A stretch of 64,000 nt of DNA from an uncultured Pseudokineococcus sp. (GTDB lineage Bacteria > Actinomycetota > Actinomycetes > Actinomycetales > Quadrisphaeraceae): NCBI RefSeq assembly GCF_947499845.1, contig NZ_CANMPM010000003.1, positions 124,001-188,000 on the forward strand, given 5' to 3'. A program made the position numbers and the translations under genes. Shown here one piece after another: positions 26,003 to 58,786 of this stretch. Positions within the stretch are counted from its first letter, which is position 1; every line of letters starts with the position of its first letter. Below the pieces are notes generated by a model. The model was not told the DNA's origin. It saw only the letters and a program-made list of their open reading frames with translations, and searched no databases.

Positions 26003-26056
26003 ACGCCGTCCACCACCGAGGTGCGCCGGCCCGCGGGGTCGACCAGCGATGGGGCC

Positions 26057-26144
26057 GCGGACTTCGCGGGTCGGCACGCCGCGGCGCGCGCACGAGCGCG
26101 GACTTCGAGGGGCGACGGACGGCGCGGCGGCCCTCGAAGTCCGC
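26057..26144 (-). repeat. 88-bp dispersed repeat, copy B (triad element 4)
   Basis: Reverse-complement copy of the 19205-19292 element. Arms GCGGACTTCGCGGG (26057-26070), GCGGACTTCGAGGG (26098-26111) and CCCTCGAAGTCCGC (26131-26144); the last two are perfect inverse complements. Spacing (33 and 41 bp) equals that of copy A, and the sequence between the arms is also conserved (for example CGCCGTCCG and CGCTCGTGC read on the minus strand). It lies between the CPBP gene and the GGDEF-EAL gene. Confidence 0.85.
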
Positions 26145-26381
26145 TGCCGACGGCGTCGGGACGACGTCCCGGTCGCCCACGCGCAGGTGCGCCACGAGGG
26201 CGAGGAGGAACCCCGCTCTCCACGGGTCGTGGAGGAGGAGGGCTACGACGTCCGGCCGGGGGCGCGGCTGCTCCGTCCGGGGGACCCCGGCGCCCCGGTC
26301 GCGTCCCGACCTCCCGCCACGCTGAGGCACCATGAGTCACTGGGGGTAGCAGGACTGGGCTGGACGGGGGAGGGTGCGCTC

Positions 26382-28124
26382 GTGCAGGGACGAGCAAGGG
26401 GACCACGGGCCACCGGGGCCGTCGACGGCGGCCCGACCCCCGTCGCGGGGGCGTCGGCCGGGGCCGTCCTCCTCCTCGGCTCCCTCTGCGCCCTCCTGTC
26501 GGCCCTCTTCCCGGCGGCCGGCCAGACGCCCGCGCTGCTGCTCGCCATCGCGGCCACCACGGCGGTCGGCGGGGCGGCGCTCGTGCTGCTGCGGGCCGTC
26601 GTCTCCTGGACCGTCCTCAACGCCGCCGTCATCGCCGGTGAGCTGCTGCTCGTCGTCGCCGCCGTCGACGCGGCGGGGGACCGCTCGCGGCTCGTCGCCG
26701 TCACCGGCCTCGCCGTCCTCGGGGTGCTGCCGTCCGCGCTGCTGCTGCGCCCGCGGCCGGCGGCGGTGCACCTCGGCGTCGTGGTCGCCGTCGCCGTCGC
26801 GCTGCGGCTCCTCGCGCCGGGGGGCGGCACCGTCGTCGAGGCCGTCTACGTGGCGGTCGCGCTCGTCGCCGTCGCCGTCCTCGGGGTCGTGCTGAGCCGG
26901 GCCGTCGCGCGCGCGGACGTCGACGACCTCACCCAGCTGCCCAACCGGCGGGCGCTCGCCCGGGCCCTCGACGCCCACGTGGCGGTCCCGCCGCCGGGGG
27001 CGACGAGCCTCGCCATGCTCGACCTCGACGGGTTCAAGGAGGTCAACGACACCCACGGCCACGGCGCGGGGGACGCCCGGCTCGTCGCCGTCGCCCGCCA
27101 CCTGCGGAGCCGGCTGCCGGACGGGCTCCTCGCGCGCATCGGCGGGGACGAGTTCGTGTGGGTCGTCGAGGCCGGCGGGGACGAGGCGCGCCGCCGCCTG
27201 GAGGAGGCCACCGCCGACGTCCCCGACGAGCAGCGCGTGTCCTTCGGCGTCGCGGTGCTCGACGCGAGCGACTCCGCGGCGACGTGGCGGCAGCGCGCCG
27301 ACGCCGACCTCTACGCCGCCAAGCGCCGCCGGCGCGGCCTGCTGCCCGCCAGCCTCGACACCCCCGAGGCCGAGGAGCTCCTCCGCGCCATCACCGACGG
27401 CGAGCTCGTGCTGCGCTACCAGCCCGTCGTGGACCTCGGGACAGGCGCGCTGAGCGGCGTCGAGGCCCTCGTGCGGTGGCAGCACCCCGAGCGCGGCCTC
27501 CTGCCGCCCAGCACCTTCCTGCCGCTGGCCGAGGCCACGGGCGTCGTCGACCTCCTCGGGGCGCGCGTCCTGCGGGCCGCCTGCCACGAGGTGCGCGCCT
27601 GGCAGCGCCGCACCGGCGCCACCGCGGGGGTCGCCGTCAACGTCTCGGGCGCGGAGCTCGCCTCCCCGGCCTACCCGGGGCGGGTGCTGCGAGCGCTGGC
27701 CGACAGCGGGCTGCCCGCCTCCGACCTCGTCCTCGAGGTGACGGAGACGGCCTTCGCGGAGGCGCCGACCATGACGGCGTCGCTCACCGCGCTGCGCGGC
27801 GCCGGCGTCCGGGTGGCGGTCGACGACTTCGGCACCGGCTGGTCGACGCTCTCCCGTCTGGACCAGCTGCCCGTCGACGTCCTCAAGCTCGACAAGTCCT
27901 TCGTCGACCGCGTGGTCCCCGGCGAGGGGTGCACGCCCGTCGTCGACGCCGTGCTGGCCATGGCGCGCGCCCTGGACCTCGAGGTCACCGCCGAGGGCGT
28001 CGAGACGGCGGAGCAGGTGGCCGCGCTGCGGGACGCCGGGTGCGACGCCGCGCAGGGCTACCACCTCCAGCGCCCCGTCCCCCTGGAGGACGTAGAGCTC
28101 AGCCGCCTGAGCTCGGCGGCCTGA
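26382..28124 (+). CDS. Membrane-anchored GGDEF-EAL c-di-GMP enzyme
   Basis: A 580-residue protein. Residues 20-180 hold five to six helices. The diguanylate cyclase domain follows, with DDLTQLPNRRAL and an intact catalytic GGDEF at about 254-258. The EAL domain has an intact EAL (361-363, GVEALVRWQHPERG), the metal/loop motifs DDFGTGWSTL and KLDKSFVDR, and AEGVETAEQ. Both active sites look competent, so it may make and degrade c-di-GMP. GTG at 26382, behind GGGGGAGGG, was chosen because upstream in-frame sequence runs through the dispersed repeat. It converges on the LOV-phosphatase gene, giving two signalling genes tail to tail. Confidence 0.9.
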   Translation: MQGRARGPRATGAVDGGPTPVAGASAGAVLLLGSLCALLSALFPAAGQTPALLLAIAATTAVGGAALVLLRAVVSWTVLNAAVIAGELLLVVAAVDAAGDRSRLVAVTGLAVLGVLPSALLLRPRPAAVHLGVVVAVAVALRLLAPGGGTVVEAVYVAVALVAVAVLGVVLSRAVARADVDDLTQLPNRRALARALDAHVAVPPPGATSLAMLDLDGFKEVNDTHGHGAGDARLVAVARHLRSRLPDGLLARIGGDEFVWVVEAGGDEARRRLEEATADVPDEQRVSFGVAVLDASDSAATWRQRADADLYAAKRRRRGLLPASLDTPEAEELLRAITDGELVLRYQPVVDLGTGALSGVEALVRWQHPERGLLPPSTFLPLAEATGVVDLLGARVLRAACHEVRAWQRRTGATAGVAVNVSGAELASPAYPGRVLRALADSGLPASDLVLEVTETAFAEAPTMTASLTALRGAGVRVAVDDFGTGWSTLSRLDQLPVDVLKLDKSFVDRVVPGEGCTPVVDAVLAMARALDLEVTAEGVETAEQVAALRDAGCDAAQGYHLQRPVPLEDVELSRLSSAA

Positions 28125-28183: not shown

Positions 28184-30343
28184 TCACTCCGGGGCGTCGG
28201 GGCTGCGGCGCACGACGAGGACGCACGTGTCGTCCTCGAGGTCGAGGCCGCCGTCGGTGAAGCGGGCGACGACGAGGTCGCGCAGCGCCGCCGCGCTGCA
28301 CCCCTCGGGCGCCTGGGAGAGCACCTGCGCCAGCTCGTCGATGCCCTGCCGCAGCGGCCGGTCCCGCCGCTCGAGCAGGCCGTCGGTGTAGAGCACGAGC
28401 GCCGCGCCGGGGGGCATGGGCACCTCGGCCTGGTCGACGAGCGTGCGCGGGGCGGCGACCCCGATGGGGGTCGTGAGCGCCTGGTCGAGGCGCTCGACGG
28501 CGCCCCCGGGCAGCAGCAGCATCGGCGGCGGGTGGCCCGCCTTGGCGTAGGTGACCGCGCAGCGGCTCCCGTCCTCGGCGCAGGCCACGCGGGCGTACAC
28601 GCACGTCGCGAGGCCCGCCATGCCGAGGCCCCGCACGAGCAGGTCCAGCCGGCGCAGGACGGCGCCGGGCTCGTCGCCGCTCCAGGCGTAGGAGCGCAGG
28701 ACCGAGCGCAGCTGGCCCATGGCGGCGGCGGCCTGCAGGTCGTGGCCCATGACGTCGCCGATGGCGACGCCGAGGCCGCCGTCGGGCAGGTCGAGGACGT
28801 CGTACCAGTCGCCGCCGACCTCGGCGCCGACGGCCGCCGGGAGGTAGGTGGCCGCGACGTCGAAGTCGTCGAGCTCCGGCAGGTCGGGCAGGAGGCTGCG
28901 CTGGAGCGTCAGGGCGGCCGCGTGCTCGCGCTCGTAGAGGCGTGCGTTGTCGATGGCCAGGCCGGCGCGCACGCCGACGTCCGCCATGGTCGCCAGGTCG
29001 GTCGGGCCGGGGGCGCTGCCGTCGACGACGACGAGGCCGAGCACGGCCGTGGTGCGACCGCGCGCGCGCAGCGGCACGAGGACCACCCGCGTCATGCCCA
29101 TGGCCCGGACGGCCTCGCGGCTCTCCTCGCGCTCGAGGGGCCCGGCGGCCTCATCGACGTCGAGCTCCCAGGAGATCGGGTCGGTGACCGCGCCGGAGAG
29201 CAGCTCGGCCAGCTGCGGGCCGTGCGCGTACCGGTGCGCGTCCTCGGTGGCCAGCACCCGCGCGTGCTCGGCCATCGCCGGGTCGCCGTGGGCGACGTGG
29301 AAGGCCGACGGCCGCCCGGTGTCGTCGGTGCCGATGGCGAAGGCCCAGACCGCGAGGTCGGGCACGACGAGCCCCGGCAGCACCGCGAGGGCCTCGTGGC
29401 TGTCGAGGCGGCTGGACAGCGCGCTGCTCACCCGCGCCAGCGCCTCGAGCCGGGCGTTCGCGCGGCGGGCGGCCTCGAGCGCCCGGTCGCGCTCGGCGGC
29501 GGCCTCGACCCGCGCGGTGACGTCGGACTGGACGCCCACGTGGTGGGTGAGGCGGCCGTCGGCGTCGAACACCGGGCTGATGACCACCTCGTTCCAGAAG
29601 GCGGTGCCGTCGGCCCGGAAGTTGAGGAGGACCTCGGTGACGGGCTCGTCCTCGCGCAGGGCGCGGGAGATGCGGGCGACGGCCTCGCGGTCGGTGGCGG
29701 GGCCCTGGAGGAAGCGGCAGTTGCGACCGACGACGTCCTCGGAGGTGTACCCCGTGGTGCGCGTGAAGGCGGGATTGACCCACACGAGCGGGTCGTCCTC
29801 GCGGTGGGGGTCGCTGATGGTGAACGACAGGTCGCTCGCGACGACGGCGCGGTAGCGGAGGTCCCCGCCGTCCTGCAGCTCGGCGACGGCCTCCTGCTCG
29901 CGCAGCGGCAGCATGACGACCAGGGCCTGGCGCGCCAGCGGCGGCGGGGCGTCGGTGAGGGGGAAGCCGACCACCCACAGCGCCTCGCGGGCCGAGGTGG
30001 CGTCCGACCCGCGCTCGGCGGTCACGGCCTCGCCCGTGACGGGCTCGCCCGAGGCGACGCGGCGCAGCGGCGCGGGGCCGTCCTCCATGTCCTCGCCGGT
30101 GGCGTCGCGCAGGCCCGCGGCGCGGGACCACTCGGGGATGCCGACGGGCAGGCCCGTGCCGGGCGCCAGCTGGCGGGCGAGGTGGTTGGCGAAGACGACG
30201 TCGCCCTCGTCGAGGTCGACGAGCAGGACGGCGGCCGGGGTGTCGCGGACGACGGACGGCAGCACCGCGCCCGCGAAGGGCTGCACGGCGGTGAGCCCGT
30301 CGATGTCCGTCACGGCGTCGATAGTACGGACGCGGGCCGACAT
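28184..30343 (-). CDS. LOV-GAF-PP2C (SpoIIE/RsbU-type) photoreceptor phosphatase
   Basis: A 719-residue soluble protein. Residues 25-150: degenerate PAS. Residues 165-278: a LOV domain with the flavin signature GRNCRFLQG (photoactive Cys209), NPAFTRTTGY and VFDADGRLTHHVGVQSDVT. Residues 290-460: GAF. Residues 480-719: PP2C serine phosphatase with VGGDWYDVLDLPDGG, VAIGDVMGHD and TDGLLERRD, carrying the metal aspartates. Such proteins dephosphorylate anti-sigma-factor antagonists, so blue light would tune a stress sigma factor by partner switching. An RsbW-like kinase lies at 58.3 kb. ATG at 30343 is the earliest good start, though GTG at about 30313 is possible. A 34-bp palindrome lies upstream. 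Confidence 0.9.
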   Translation of the reverse strand: MSARVRTIDAVTDIDGLTAVQPFAGAVLPSVVRDTPAAVLLVDLDEGDVVFANHLARQLAPGTGLPVGIPEWSRAAGLRDATGEDMEDGPAPLRRVASGEPVTGEAVTAERGSDATSAREALWVVGFPLTDAPPPLARQALVVMLPLREQEAVAELQDGGDLRYRAVVASDLSFTISDPHREDDPLVWVNPAFTRTTGYTSEDVVGRNCRFLQGPATDREAVARISRALREDEPVTEVLLNFRADGTAFWNEVVISPVFDADGRLTHHVGVQSDVTARVEAAAERDRALEAARRANARLEALARVSSALSSRLDSHEALAVLPGLVVPDLAVWAFAIGTDDTGRPSAFHVAHGDPAMAEHARVLATEDAHRYAHGPQLAELLSGAVTDPISWELDVDEAAGPLEREESREAVRAMGMTRVVLVPLRARGRTTAVLGLVVVDGSAPGPTDLATMADVGVRAGLAIDNARLYEREHAAALTLQRSLLPDLPELDDFDVAATYLPAAVGAEVGGDWYDVLDLPDGGLGVAIGDVMGHDLQAAAAMGQLRSVLRSYAWSGDEPGAVLRRLDLLVRGLGMAGLATCVYARVACAEDGSRCAVTYAKAGHPPPMLLLPGGAVERLDQALTTPIGVAAPRTLVDQAEVPMPPGAALVLYTDGLLERRDRPLRQGIDELAQVLSQAPEGCSAAALRDLVVARFTDGGLDLEDDTCVLVVRRSPDAPE

Positions 30344-30426: not shown

Positions 30427-31404
30427 TCAGGGCGGCGGTGCGCCCCGGCGGACCGCGTCGAGCCACGCCCGCGCGGCGGTGAAGTCGGCGTCGCCGGTGC
30501 CCGGGCGCACGGGCACCGGTCGCGCGTCGGCCCGGGGGTAGGAGCCGAGGAAGCGCACCTGGGGGCAGAAGCGGTGCAGGCCGAGGAGCGCCTCGGCGAC
30601 CCGGGCGTCCTCGACGTGGCCCTCGGCGTCGATGGCGAAGCAGTAGCGCCCGAGCGCGTCGCCGGTGGGCCGCGACTCGATCCGCGTGAGGTTGACCCCG
30701 CGCGAGGCGAACTGCTCGAGGATCTCGAGCAGCATGCCGGGGTGGTCCTCCGGCTGGAAGGCGACGACGCTCGTGCGGTCGGCGCCCGTCCGCGGCGGCG
30801 GGGCGGTGGGGCGGCCGACGAGCACGAAGCGCGTGACGGCGCCCGCCGTGTCGCCCACGTCGCGCGCGAGCACCTGCAGGCCGTAGCGCTCGGCGGCGAC
30901 CTCCGCGCACAGGGCGGCCTCGTAGCCGGGGGCGGGGGCGCCCTCGGCCAGCCCGGCCGCGGCCGCCGCCGTCGAGGCGCTCGGCACGTAGCCGGCCGCG
31001 GGGAGGTGCGCCGCGAGCCAGCCGCGGCACTGGGCGTGGGCGTGCGTGTGCGTGCTGACGACCCGGACGTCCTCCGCGCGGGTGCCGGGCCGGGCGGCGA
31101 GGACGAAGGAGACCGGCACGAGCGCCTCGGCCAGGACGACGAGCGGGTCGCCGCCGGCGAGCCCGTCGAGGGTGGCGGCGACGCCGCCCTCGACGGAGTT
31201 CTCCATCGGCACCATGGCGGCGTCGAGGTCGCCGGCGCGGACCGCCGCCAGGGCGGCGTCGACGCTCGGCGTGGCCACCTTCTCGGCGCCGCCCTCGCCG
31301 CGCGCCGCGAGGGCGCCGGCCAGGGCGGCGTCGGTGAAGGTGCCCTCGGGGCCGAGGTAGCCGTAGCGGCGGGCCCCCGGGCGCCCCTTCGCCTCGGGGC
31401 TCAC
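30427..31404 (-). CDS. pheA: Prephenate dehydratase
   Basis: A 325-residue enzyme converting prephenate to phenylpyruvate in phenylalanine synthesis. The catalytic domain starts YGYLGPEGTFTDAAL and ends with the TRF motif (GAVTRFVLVG, about residues 190-199). The C-terminal ACT domain carries NLTRIESRPTGDALGRYCFAID, the ESRP phenylalanine-binding motif for feedback control. GTG at 31404 overlaps the stop of the flotillin gene by 4 nt, so it is translationally coupled to it. No chorismate mutase domain is fused, as usual in actinobacteria. Confidence 0.95.
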   Translation of the reverse strand: MSPEAKGRPGARRYGYLGPEGTFTDAALAGALAARGEGGAEKVATPSVDAALAAVRAGDLDAAMVPMENSVEGGVAATLDGLAGGDPLVVLAEALVPVSFVLAARPGTRAEDVRVVSTHTHAHAQCRGWLAAHLPAAGYVPSASTAAAAAGLAEGAPAPGYEAALCAEVAAERYGLQVLARDVGDTAGAVTRFVLVGRPTAPPPRTGADRTSVVAFQPEDHPGMLLEILEQFASRGVNLTRIESRPTGDALGRYCFAIDAEGHVEDARVAEALLGLHRFCPQVRFLGSYPRADARPVPVRPGTGDADFTAARAWLDAVRRGAPPP

Positions 31405-58335: not shown

Positions 58336-58786
58336 GACGGCGCGTCGGGCCGCCGAGCGCGGCCCACACGGTGCGCCGGCCGTCGTCCTCCTCGACGACG
58401 CCCCACTCGTGCGCCAGGGCGCGCACGATGCGCAGCCCGCGGCCGGAGGTCGCCATCGGGGCCGGCCGCTGGGGCCGGACCTCACCGGGGGACCCGCCGT
58501 CGGTCACCTCGACGTCGACGACGTCGCCGCGGACCTGCCAGCGCAGCAGCACGCGCCCGGAGTCGTCGGGGCGGGCGTGGCGCAGGGCGTTGCCGAGCAG
58601 CTCGCTGACGACCACGCTGACCTCGTGGACCAGCTCGTCGTCGACCCGTTCGGCGACGTCGGCGGTGATCGTCCGCCGCGCCACGGGCACGGCCCCGGGC
58701 CGGTGCGCCACCGCCACCGCCCGGGCGTCCCCGCGCTGGCGGGAGTCGAGCACCTCGGGTGCCGTCGCGGTCGTGGCCACCTGCAT
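58319..58786 (-). CDS. RsbW-like anti-sigma / ATP-binding (HATPase_c_2) protein
   Basis: A 155-residue protein of the GHKL ATPase fold: VSVVVSELLGNALRHARPDD (N-box), VDVEVTDGGSPGEVRP (G1) and TSGRGLRIVRALAHEWGV (G2 region). Actinobacteria carry many such proteins; they phosphorylate antagonists or bind sigma factors. ATG at 58786 has GGAGGAG upstream. It is divergent from an ECF-type sigma factor gene, which may be its partner, and is a candidate partner in the network served by the LOV phosphatase at 28-30 kb. Confidence 0.85.
   Translation of the reverse strand: MQVATTATAPEVLDSRQRGDARAVAVAHRPGAVPVARRTITADVAERVDDELVHEVSVVVSELLGNALRHARPDDSGRVLLRWQVRGDVVDVEVTDGGSPGEVRPQRPAPMATSGRGLRIVRALAHEWGVVEEDDGRRTVWAALGGPTRRRRPVA

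Follow-up and report, generated by a model that had tools for sequence, protein, structure and literature searches.

We analysed a 64,000-nucleotide stretch of DNA (the window) from an uncultured Pseudokineococcus sp. that carries, on its minus strand, a gene for a protein combining PAS, LOV, GAF and SpoIIE/PP2C domains. The reading frame, 28184–30343, is open throughout and encodes 719 aa when read from ATG 30343. The preliminary description had placed the start at this ATG; the frame stands, but translation probably begins ten codons further in, at GTG 30313, which gives a protein of 709 aa (28184–30313). A −10-like box, TACTAT (30321–30326, minus strand), which is a predicted promoter element, lies 7 bases before the GTG in three genomes of the genus, and genome G004 has TAGGAT 6 bases before it. 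The box precedes GTGACGGA in all four genus genomes, where the conserved stretch reads GTGACGGA(C/G)ATC, and DNA similarity among the four drops upstream of the box. We prefer the GTG because box and following sequence are conserved up to the point at which similarity falls off, and the spacing of the box suggests a leaderless transcript from GTG 30313.

Upstream on the same strand is pheA, encoding a prephenate dehydratase (PDT-ACT; 30427–31404), and on the other side a gene for a GGDEF-EAL protein (26049–28124, plus strand, start uncertain) converges on the phosphatase gene. Three other genus genomes contain orthologues with 97, 84 and 75% identity, and the order of pheA, LOV phosphatase gene and convergent GGDEF-EAL gene recurs in those three, one contig (G005) starting within pheA. 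No STAS, anti-sigma (HATPase) or sigma gene adjoins 28184–30343, the neighbours being pheA and the GGDEF-EAL gene.

An AlphaFold2 model computed with 43 family sequences (mean pLDDT 85.6) resolves the protein into a PAS domain, the LOV domain, a helix (residues 276–310), a GAF domain, a second helix (residues 447–484) and the PP2C domain. Conservation was read from an alignment of P0001 and 46 of 60 relatives; excluded were L012, which is this very gene, a further 12 rows that duplicate retained genes or are pieces of them, and L143, a PAS of 35% identity in which the Cys motif is missing. A 43-row alignment leaves out L034, L011, L026 and L027 as well, and alignment A3 omits L075 from its 43 references.

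The LOV domain (residues 170–278; 29510–29836, minus strand) is recognized by Pfam PAS_9 at residues 182–277 (E 1.2e-20), its nearest solved chains by sequence are LOV domains, and its part of the model superimposes on the YtvA LOV domain (2pr5) with Z 20.8 and rmsd 1.6 over 127 aligned residues. Residues of the LOV motif and flavin positions are present (N208, Cys209, Q213, N241, N251 and Q272), and we take N208, Q213, N241, N251 and Q272 to be flavin contacts. The adduct-forming cysteine, Cys209 (codon 29717–29719, minus strand), sits in the motif GRNCRFLQG. Like N208, R210, N241, R243, N251 and Q272, it is invariant in all 47 aligned members, which were themselves collected for their similarity to a protein carrying these residues. 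Q213 is kept in 46 of the 47 and is R in one, and N190 is replaced by S in one member. The earlier proposal of an intact LOV domain with a photoactive cysteine agrees with motif, conservation and YtvA-like fold alike.

The protein ends in a SpoIIE/RsbU-type PP2C domain (residues 490–713; 28205–28876, minus strand), as had been proposed. PF07228 (SpoIIE) matches residues 520–713 with E 7.5e-43 and 147.1 bits against a cut-off of 25, and this part of the model aligns with 3ke6, the RsbU-RsbW part of Rv1364c, with Z 28.2 and rmsd 2.8 over 227 residues. Four sites, which we take to be the PP2C metal ligands, are Asp512 in EVGGDWYD (codon 28808–28810), Asp530 in GDVMGHD (28754–28756), Asp654 in YTDG (28382–28384) and Asp704–Asp705 in EDDT (28229–28234), all on the minus strand. 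The first three are D in 47 of 47 members, and the last pair is DD in 44 with gaps in three (L018, L020 and L021), rows that had been cut 8 residues past the end of the BLAST match. The alignment thus shows no loss of these ligands, which the preliminary description had named as a result that would count against a phosphatase. G533, G655 and E658 are likewise invariant in all 47, and D515 is E in three. The N-terminal RsbT-binding domain of RsbU gave no Pfam hit anywhere in the protein at E 0.001, and the protein ends after PP2C with neither a STAS nor a HATPase domain by Pfam.

Between the two lies a GAF domain (residues 313–446; 29006–29407, minus strand). In this protein alone the GAF match falls below the Pfam cut-off (GAF_3, E 0.0098, 16.7 bits against 27), but of the 43 relatives in the alignment 32 match PF01590 with E no higher than 0.01, and the model has a GAF-like order of elements, which bears out the earlier assignment. 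The N-terminal domain (residues 30–150; 29894–30256, minus strand), previously called a degenerate PAS, has a PAS-like fold when modelled separately (mean pLDDT 82.3): the best 50 rows of a VIA-align fold comparison have Z 8.5–10.2, a middling range, and we take all 50 to be proteins with PAS domains; a Foldseek search gave a single row with E of 0.001 or below. Alone the domain matched no Pfam family at E 0.1, its profile found no sequence match among solved chains, and PAS_8 is matched by the N-terminal domain of 8 of 42 members. The PAS and GAF domains together probably add a second cue.

The two helices that join these domains differ in how their lengths vary. In the model the LOV-to-GAF signalling helix (residues 276–310; 29414–29518, minus strand) is a single helix of 35 residues, and the GAF-to-PP2C helix (residues 447–484; 28892–29005, minus strand) is one of 38. 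The latter shows no variation, the span from R459 to Q481 being 23 residues in 43 of 43 proteins. The distance from Q272 at the end of LOV to L302 at the start of GAF takes the values 24 (n=2), 31 (27), 38 (13), 45 (10), 52 (4), 59 (1) and 73 (1), so that 58 of 58 automatically anchored proteins, out of 62 tried, follow 31+7n. The four that could not be anchored (L231, L232, L233 and L235) measure 48, 41, 48 and 41 when counted by hand from a guessed anchor, and with that anchor they are off 31+7n but seven residues apart from one another. L239, also counted by hand, has 38 and fits, and L164, which has no GAF domain, was excluded from the count.

The PP2C tree requires at least 11 changes of linker length. 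In the 43-row alignment, 19 of the 19 rows that depart from the commonest linker length do so by a multiple of seven, whereas in eight control segments multiples of seven account for 1/25 (PAS-LOV), 0/32, 2/12, 0/9, 0/22, 0/30, 1/25 and 0/31 departures. If any whole-residue change were equally tolerated, we estimate the chance of eleven independent changes all being multiples of seven at roughly (1/7)^11. The total distance from LOV to PP2C was also considered as the length under rule, and no rule was seen there because the body of the GAF domain varies; the LOV-GAF part alone shows it. Because linker lengths step by whole heptads, unlike those of other segments, the pattern suggests that the LOV-GAF helix forms an in-register dimeric coiled coil that passes the signal to the phosphatase.

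Whole-heptad steps could instead reflect mutational bias, with slippage of 21-base repeats producing the lengths and no selection for coiled-coil register. The linker of L073 contains an exact 21-base tandem copy that adds one heptad, its sister on the tree, L187, keeping the shorter form, so duplication can supply heptad steps; of the five longer linkers compared, that of L028 also contains an imperfect copy (identity 0.86 at a lag of 21). The other three have no clear excess at that lag (0.67–0.76), the process needs heptad repeats to exist beforehand, and no other step size occurs in the 58 anchored proteins. We consider mutational bias quite improbable as the whole account, and a register constraint on the coiled coil would explain why whole heptads alone are seen.

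Proteins matching this one at E 1e-60 or better occur in 47 of 198 sampled genomes of the order, counting both of the classes described below, and among GTDB genomes named relatives turn up in Kineococcus and in a Quadrisphaera MAG. No more than five candidates were scored in any genome, and the loci fetched are a part of the rows listed. Relatives fall into two classes: stand-alone proteins that, like this one, end after PP2C, and proteins with a C-terminal HATPase added. Among 91 phosphatase-first rows, a divergent STAS gene lies beside 26 of 26 HATPase-fused members and beside 0 of 65 others, the latter including neighbouring plain phosphatases and GAF-only ones. The search for STAS genes extended to 2500 bases wherever the fetched sequence was long enough; upstream sequence reached at least 800 bases in 60 of the 65 non-fused rows and less than 800 in 5, and STAS gaps in the fused class run from 144 to 1136. 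A tandem STAS gene was found in 1 of the 65, L239 (L239:3147-5614, in G050:C263), a stand-alone LOV phosphatase with the STAS gene 72 bases upstream and the only HATPase-less case with a STAS neighbour. Loci L264–L279 were fetched for their STAS hits and are counted apart: 10 of 16 have a fused phosphatase and six have STAS alone, three of these (L265, L271 and L273) near contig ends. In two related genomes (L264:2895-3870 and L270:2494-3765) the two STAS genes adjoin one another and no phosphatase gene intervenes, which means that one has been gained or lost there. The gene alongside the STAS pair in both is presumably that of fructose-bisphosphate aldolase.

Of the 26 fused proteins, 7 have the LOV Cys motif and 19 do not; among fused members lacking the Cys six were scanned, and five of them have a Pfam PAS match. 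A broader survey turned up three stand-alone relatives (L236, L237 and L241) with a LOV-like domain but no cysteine there; in the same survey L239 retains it as GRSCSFLQG, and the HATPase-fused L240 has Pro in its place. Ten motif-negative rows were aligned individually, the remainder of the motif-negative rows being called by motif search. A Pfam scan covered ten such rows; of the nine that lack the Cys, eight have a PAS match and one (L258) has none. Judged by these residues, the LOV slot is not always photoactive across relatives, since L236, L237 and L241 lack the Cys and L240 has Pro. On a tree built by a rapid search and carrying a single support value, from which L164, L280 and L281 are absent, the HATPase-fused class requires one change and the LOV motif at least five gains or losses (with L239 counted as LOV). 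Because the fused class arose by one change, the LOV motif changed at least five times, and Cys-less fused members carry PAS, the sensor seems to have been exchanged while the STAS-phosphatase-ATPase cassette stayed.

Such turnover also speaks for a reading in which the LOV domain is folded and flavin-bound but its main work is redox sensing or constitutive dimerisation, with PAS and GAF carrying the signal and light of minor importance in vivo. Light-independent effects of YtvA have been reported, according to the accessible part of a review (PMC4844311). Against this, Cys209, N208, R210, N241, N251 and Q272 are without exception in the 47 aligned members, and a purely structural role does not demand them, although the members were chosen by similarity to a protein bearing these residues. 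We judge a redox or dimerising role improbable and retain a light-gated LOV domain as the preferred reading.

The genome that the window belongs to has ten SpoIIE matches, three of them with LOV: the gene described here, one on contig C16 and one on contig C10. The C16 gene (L162:6526-9690, in G000:C16) encodes a LOV-GAF-PP2C-HATPase paralogue and has on each side a STAS gene carrying the motif DSTG. Its locus is a compact candidate for a light-gated partner switch, with a context stronger than that of 28184–30343. The C10 gene (L164:4407-5885, in G000:C10) encodes a short LOV-PP2C protein without GAF in which the photoactive Cys motif is present.

Two STAS models agree on eight places in the genome. 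The motif is DSTG in three (a BldG-like gene on C27 and both C16 genes) and DSMG in one (C3:113822), and at the position of the RsbV serine there is Ser in four, Cys in two and Thr in one of the eight. On contig C7 an RsbW-like ATPase adjoins a gene matching SigBFG at 249.8 bits (cut-off 234.35). RsbV-like, RsbW-like and SigB/F/G-type genes are thus all present in the genome, the names BldG-like, RsbV-like and RsbW-like being putative and assigned from motif and context. Closer to the phosphatase gene, an RsbW-like HATPase_c_2 match in the window (58361–58705, minus strand), about 28 kb away, is a possible partner kinase, and the DSMG-bearing STAS gene (G000:C3:113822-114082), outside the window on the same contig and about 38 kb away, is a candidate substrate. 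Light control of sigma-factor partner switching by the product of 28184–30343, which the preliminary description predicted, is plausible on this gene content.

The STAS proteins of C16 were considered as the obligatory substrate. Three genomes that each have a stand-alone LOV phosphatase (G058, G099 and G164) contain no member of the C16 STAS family at E 1e-12; that STAS therefore cannot be a universal substrate, and the idea that this phosphatase must act on it is weakened.

A light-gated phosphatase might instead have a target outside sigma control, for example a STAS-type regulator of c-di-GMP enzymes. In this and three other genus genomes the gene that converges on the phosphatase gene encodes a GGDEF-EAL protein, a GGDEF-EAL match lies within the fetched stretch of 6 of 17 other loci (L180 and L182–L186 among L176–L192), and the Cys- and Thr-bearing STAS places could be read in the same sense. 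The neighbour is convergent and not co-transcribed, distances and orientations differ in distant relatives, where such genes may simply abound, and four STAS places in the genome bear Ser. Being opposite in direction and not constant outside the genus, the GGDEF-EAL gene was set aside as a functional partner and is kept only as part of this alternative, which we regard as rather unlikely. A STAS antagonist acting in trans, followed by a sigma factor, is from family and genome the most likely output.

The accessible part of one review (PMC4844311) names LOV with SpoIIE output among typical LOV-associated functions, so by its domains the protein belongs to an annotation class already published. 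Among the matches listed in the open-licence PMC literature, judged by title and start of abstract, none was an experimental study of a LOV phosphatase. The present protein shares with that class, as outlined there, the joining of LOV to a SpoIIE/PP2C output and differs from it in the PAS and GAF domains that flank LOV and in linkers that step by heptads. Comparison with YtvA of Bacillus subtilis rests on the LOV domain (127 residues at 39% identity) and on the idea of blue light entering partner switching; the output of YtvA is a STAS domain and here it is a phosphatase, and the NCBIfam YtvA_fam score is 132.8 bits against a cut-off of 250.

Rv1364c of Mycobacterium tuberculosis is, from the portion of PMC12143880 available, a PAS-RsbU-RsbW-RsbV fusion. 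It resembles our protein in the PP2C fold and in a PAS sensor ahead of the phosphatase, but our protein has LOV and GAF and is without HATPase and STAS, the C16 paralogue having a HATPase. With RsbP and RsbU of B. subtilis, as presented in the same portion (PMC12143880), it shares the plan of a sensor, a helical linker and a PPM phosphatase; by Pfam it has no RsbU N-terminal domain, and unlike theirs its gene does not adjoin a sigma gene. Heptad periodicity has been reported for other LOV and phytochrome receptors, and YF1 and PadC share linker lengths seven residues apart in the accessible parts of two papers (PMC6798134, PMC9587094), with outputs that are kinases or cyclases where here GAF and then a phosphatase follow. 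Coiled-coil control of PPM phosphatases was proposed in a 2025 paper on RsbU (PMC12143880), in whose main text the words heptad and register are absent.

Taken together, we think it rather probable that 28184–30343 encodes a dimeric Ser/Thr phosphatase gated by blue light and acting in trans on a STAS/anti-sigma partner switch. Its light-sensing and phosphatase halves are as secure as sequence and modelling can establish, and their coupling by an in-register coiled coil has good support. From its residues and fold, the LOV domain would form a flavin-Cys209 adduct in blue light. The resulting strain would pass into helix 276–310, which, to judge from the heptad-quantised lengths, probably forms an in-register coiled coil with that of the second subunit. 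As the model and the published RsbU mechanism indicate, the signal could then travel through GAF and the fixed-length helix 447–484 into the PP2C dimer interface. PP2C activity on a phosphoserine STAS antagonist would change, most likely upward in light, and we lean towards light raising phosphatase activity. The dephosphorylated antagonist may then free a sigma factor bound to an RsbW-like anti-sigma protein. We infer the sigma link in trans from family and genome; at the locus itself no STAS, HATPase or sigma gene adjoins.

A broader reading can be advanced tentatively, as possible rather than probable when taken whole. In Actinobacteria of this order a family of partner switches would be gated by light, with a LOV-GAF coiled coil of heptad-quantised length driving PP2C; LOV and ordinary PAS domains would have been swapped at one position several times, in stand-alone proteins and in HATPase fusions with divergent STAS genes; and the three LOV phosphatases of this genome would share one pool of STAS antagonists. 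Were that pool shared, light would have several simultaneous points of entry into the sigma network.

How a sensor domain acts on a PPM phosphatase by way of a helical linker is left unanswered in the accessible part of the RsbU paper (PMC12143880), and this family offers a natural series in which to ask it. With linkers that change by whole heptads and a LOV motif that comes and goes at one position, both register and sensor become directly testable. If it works as proposed, a member of the family would also give bacterial optogenetics a serine/threonine phosphatase that is naturally under light control.
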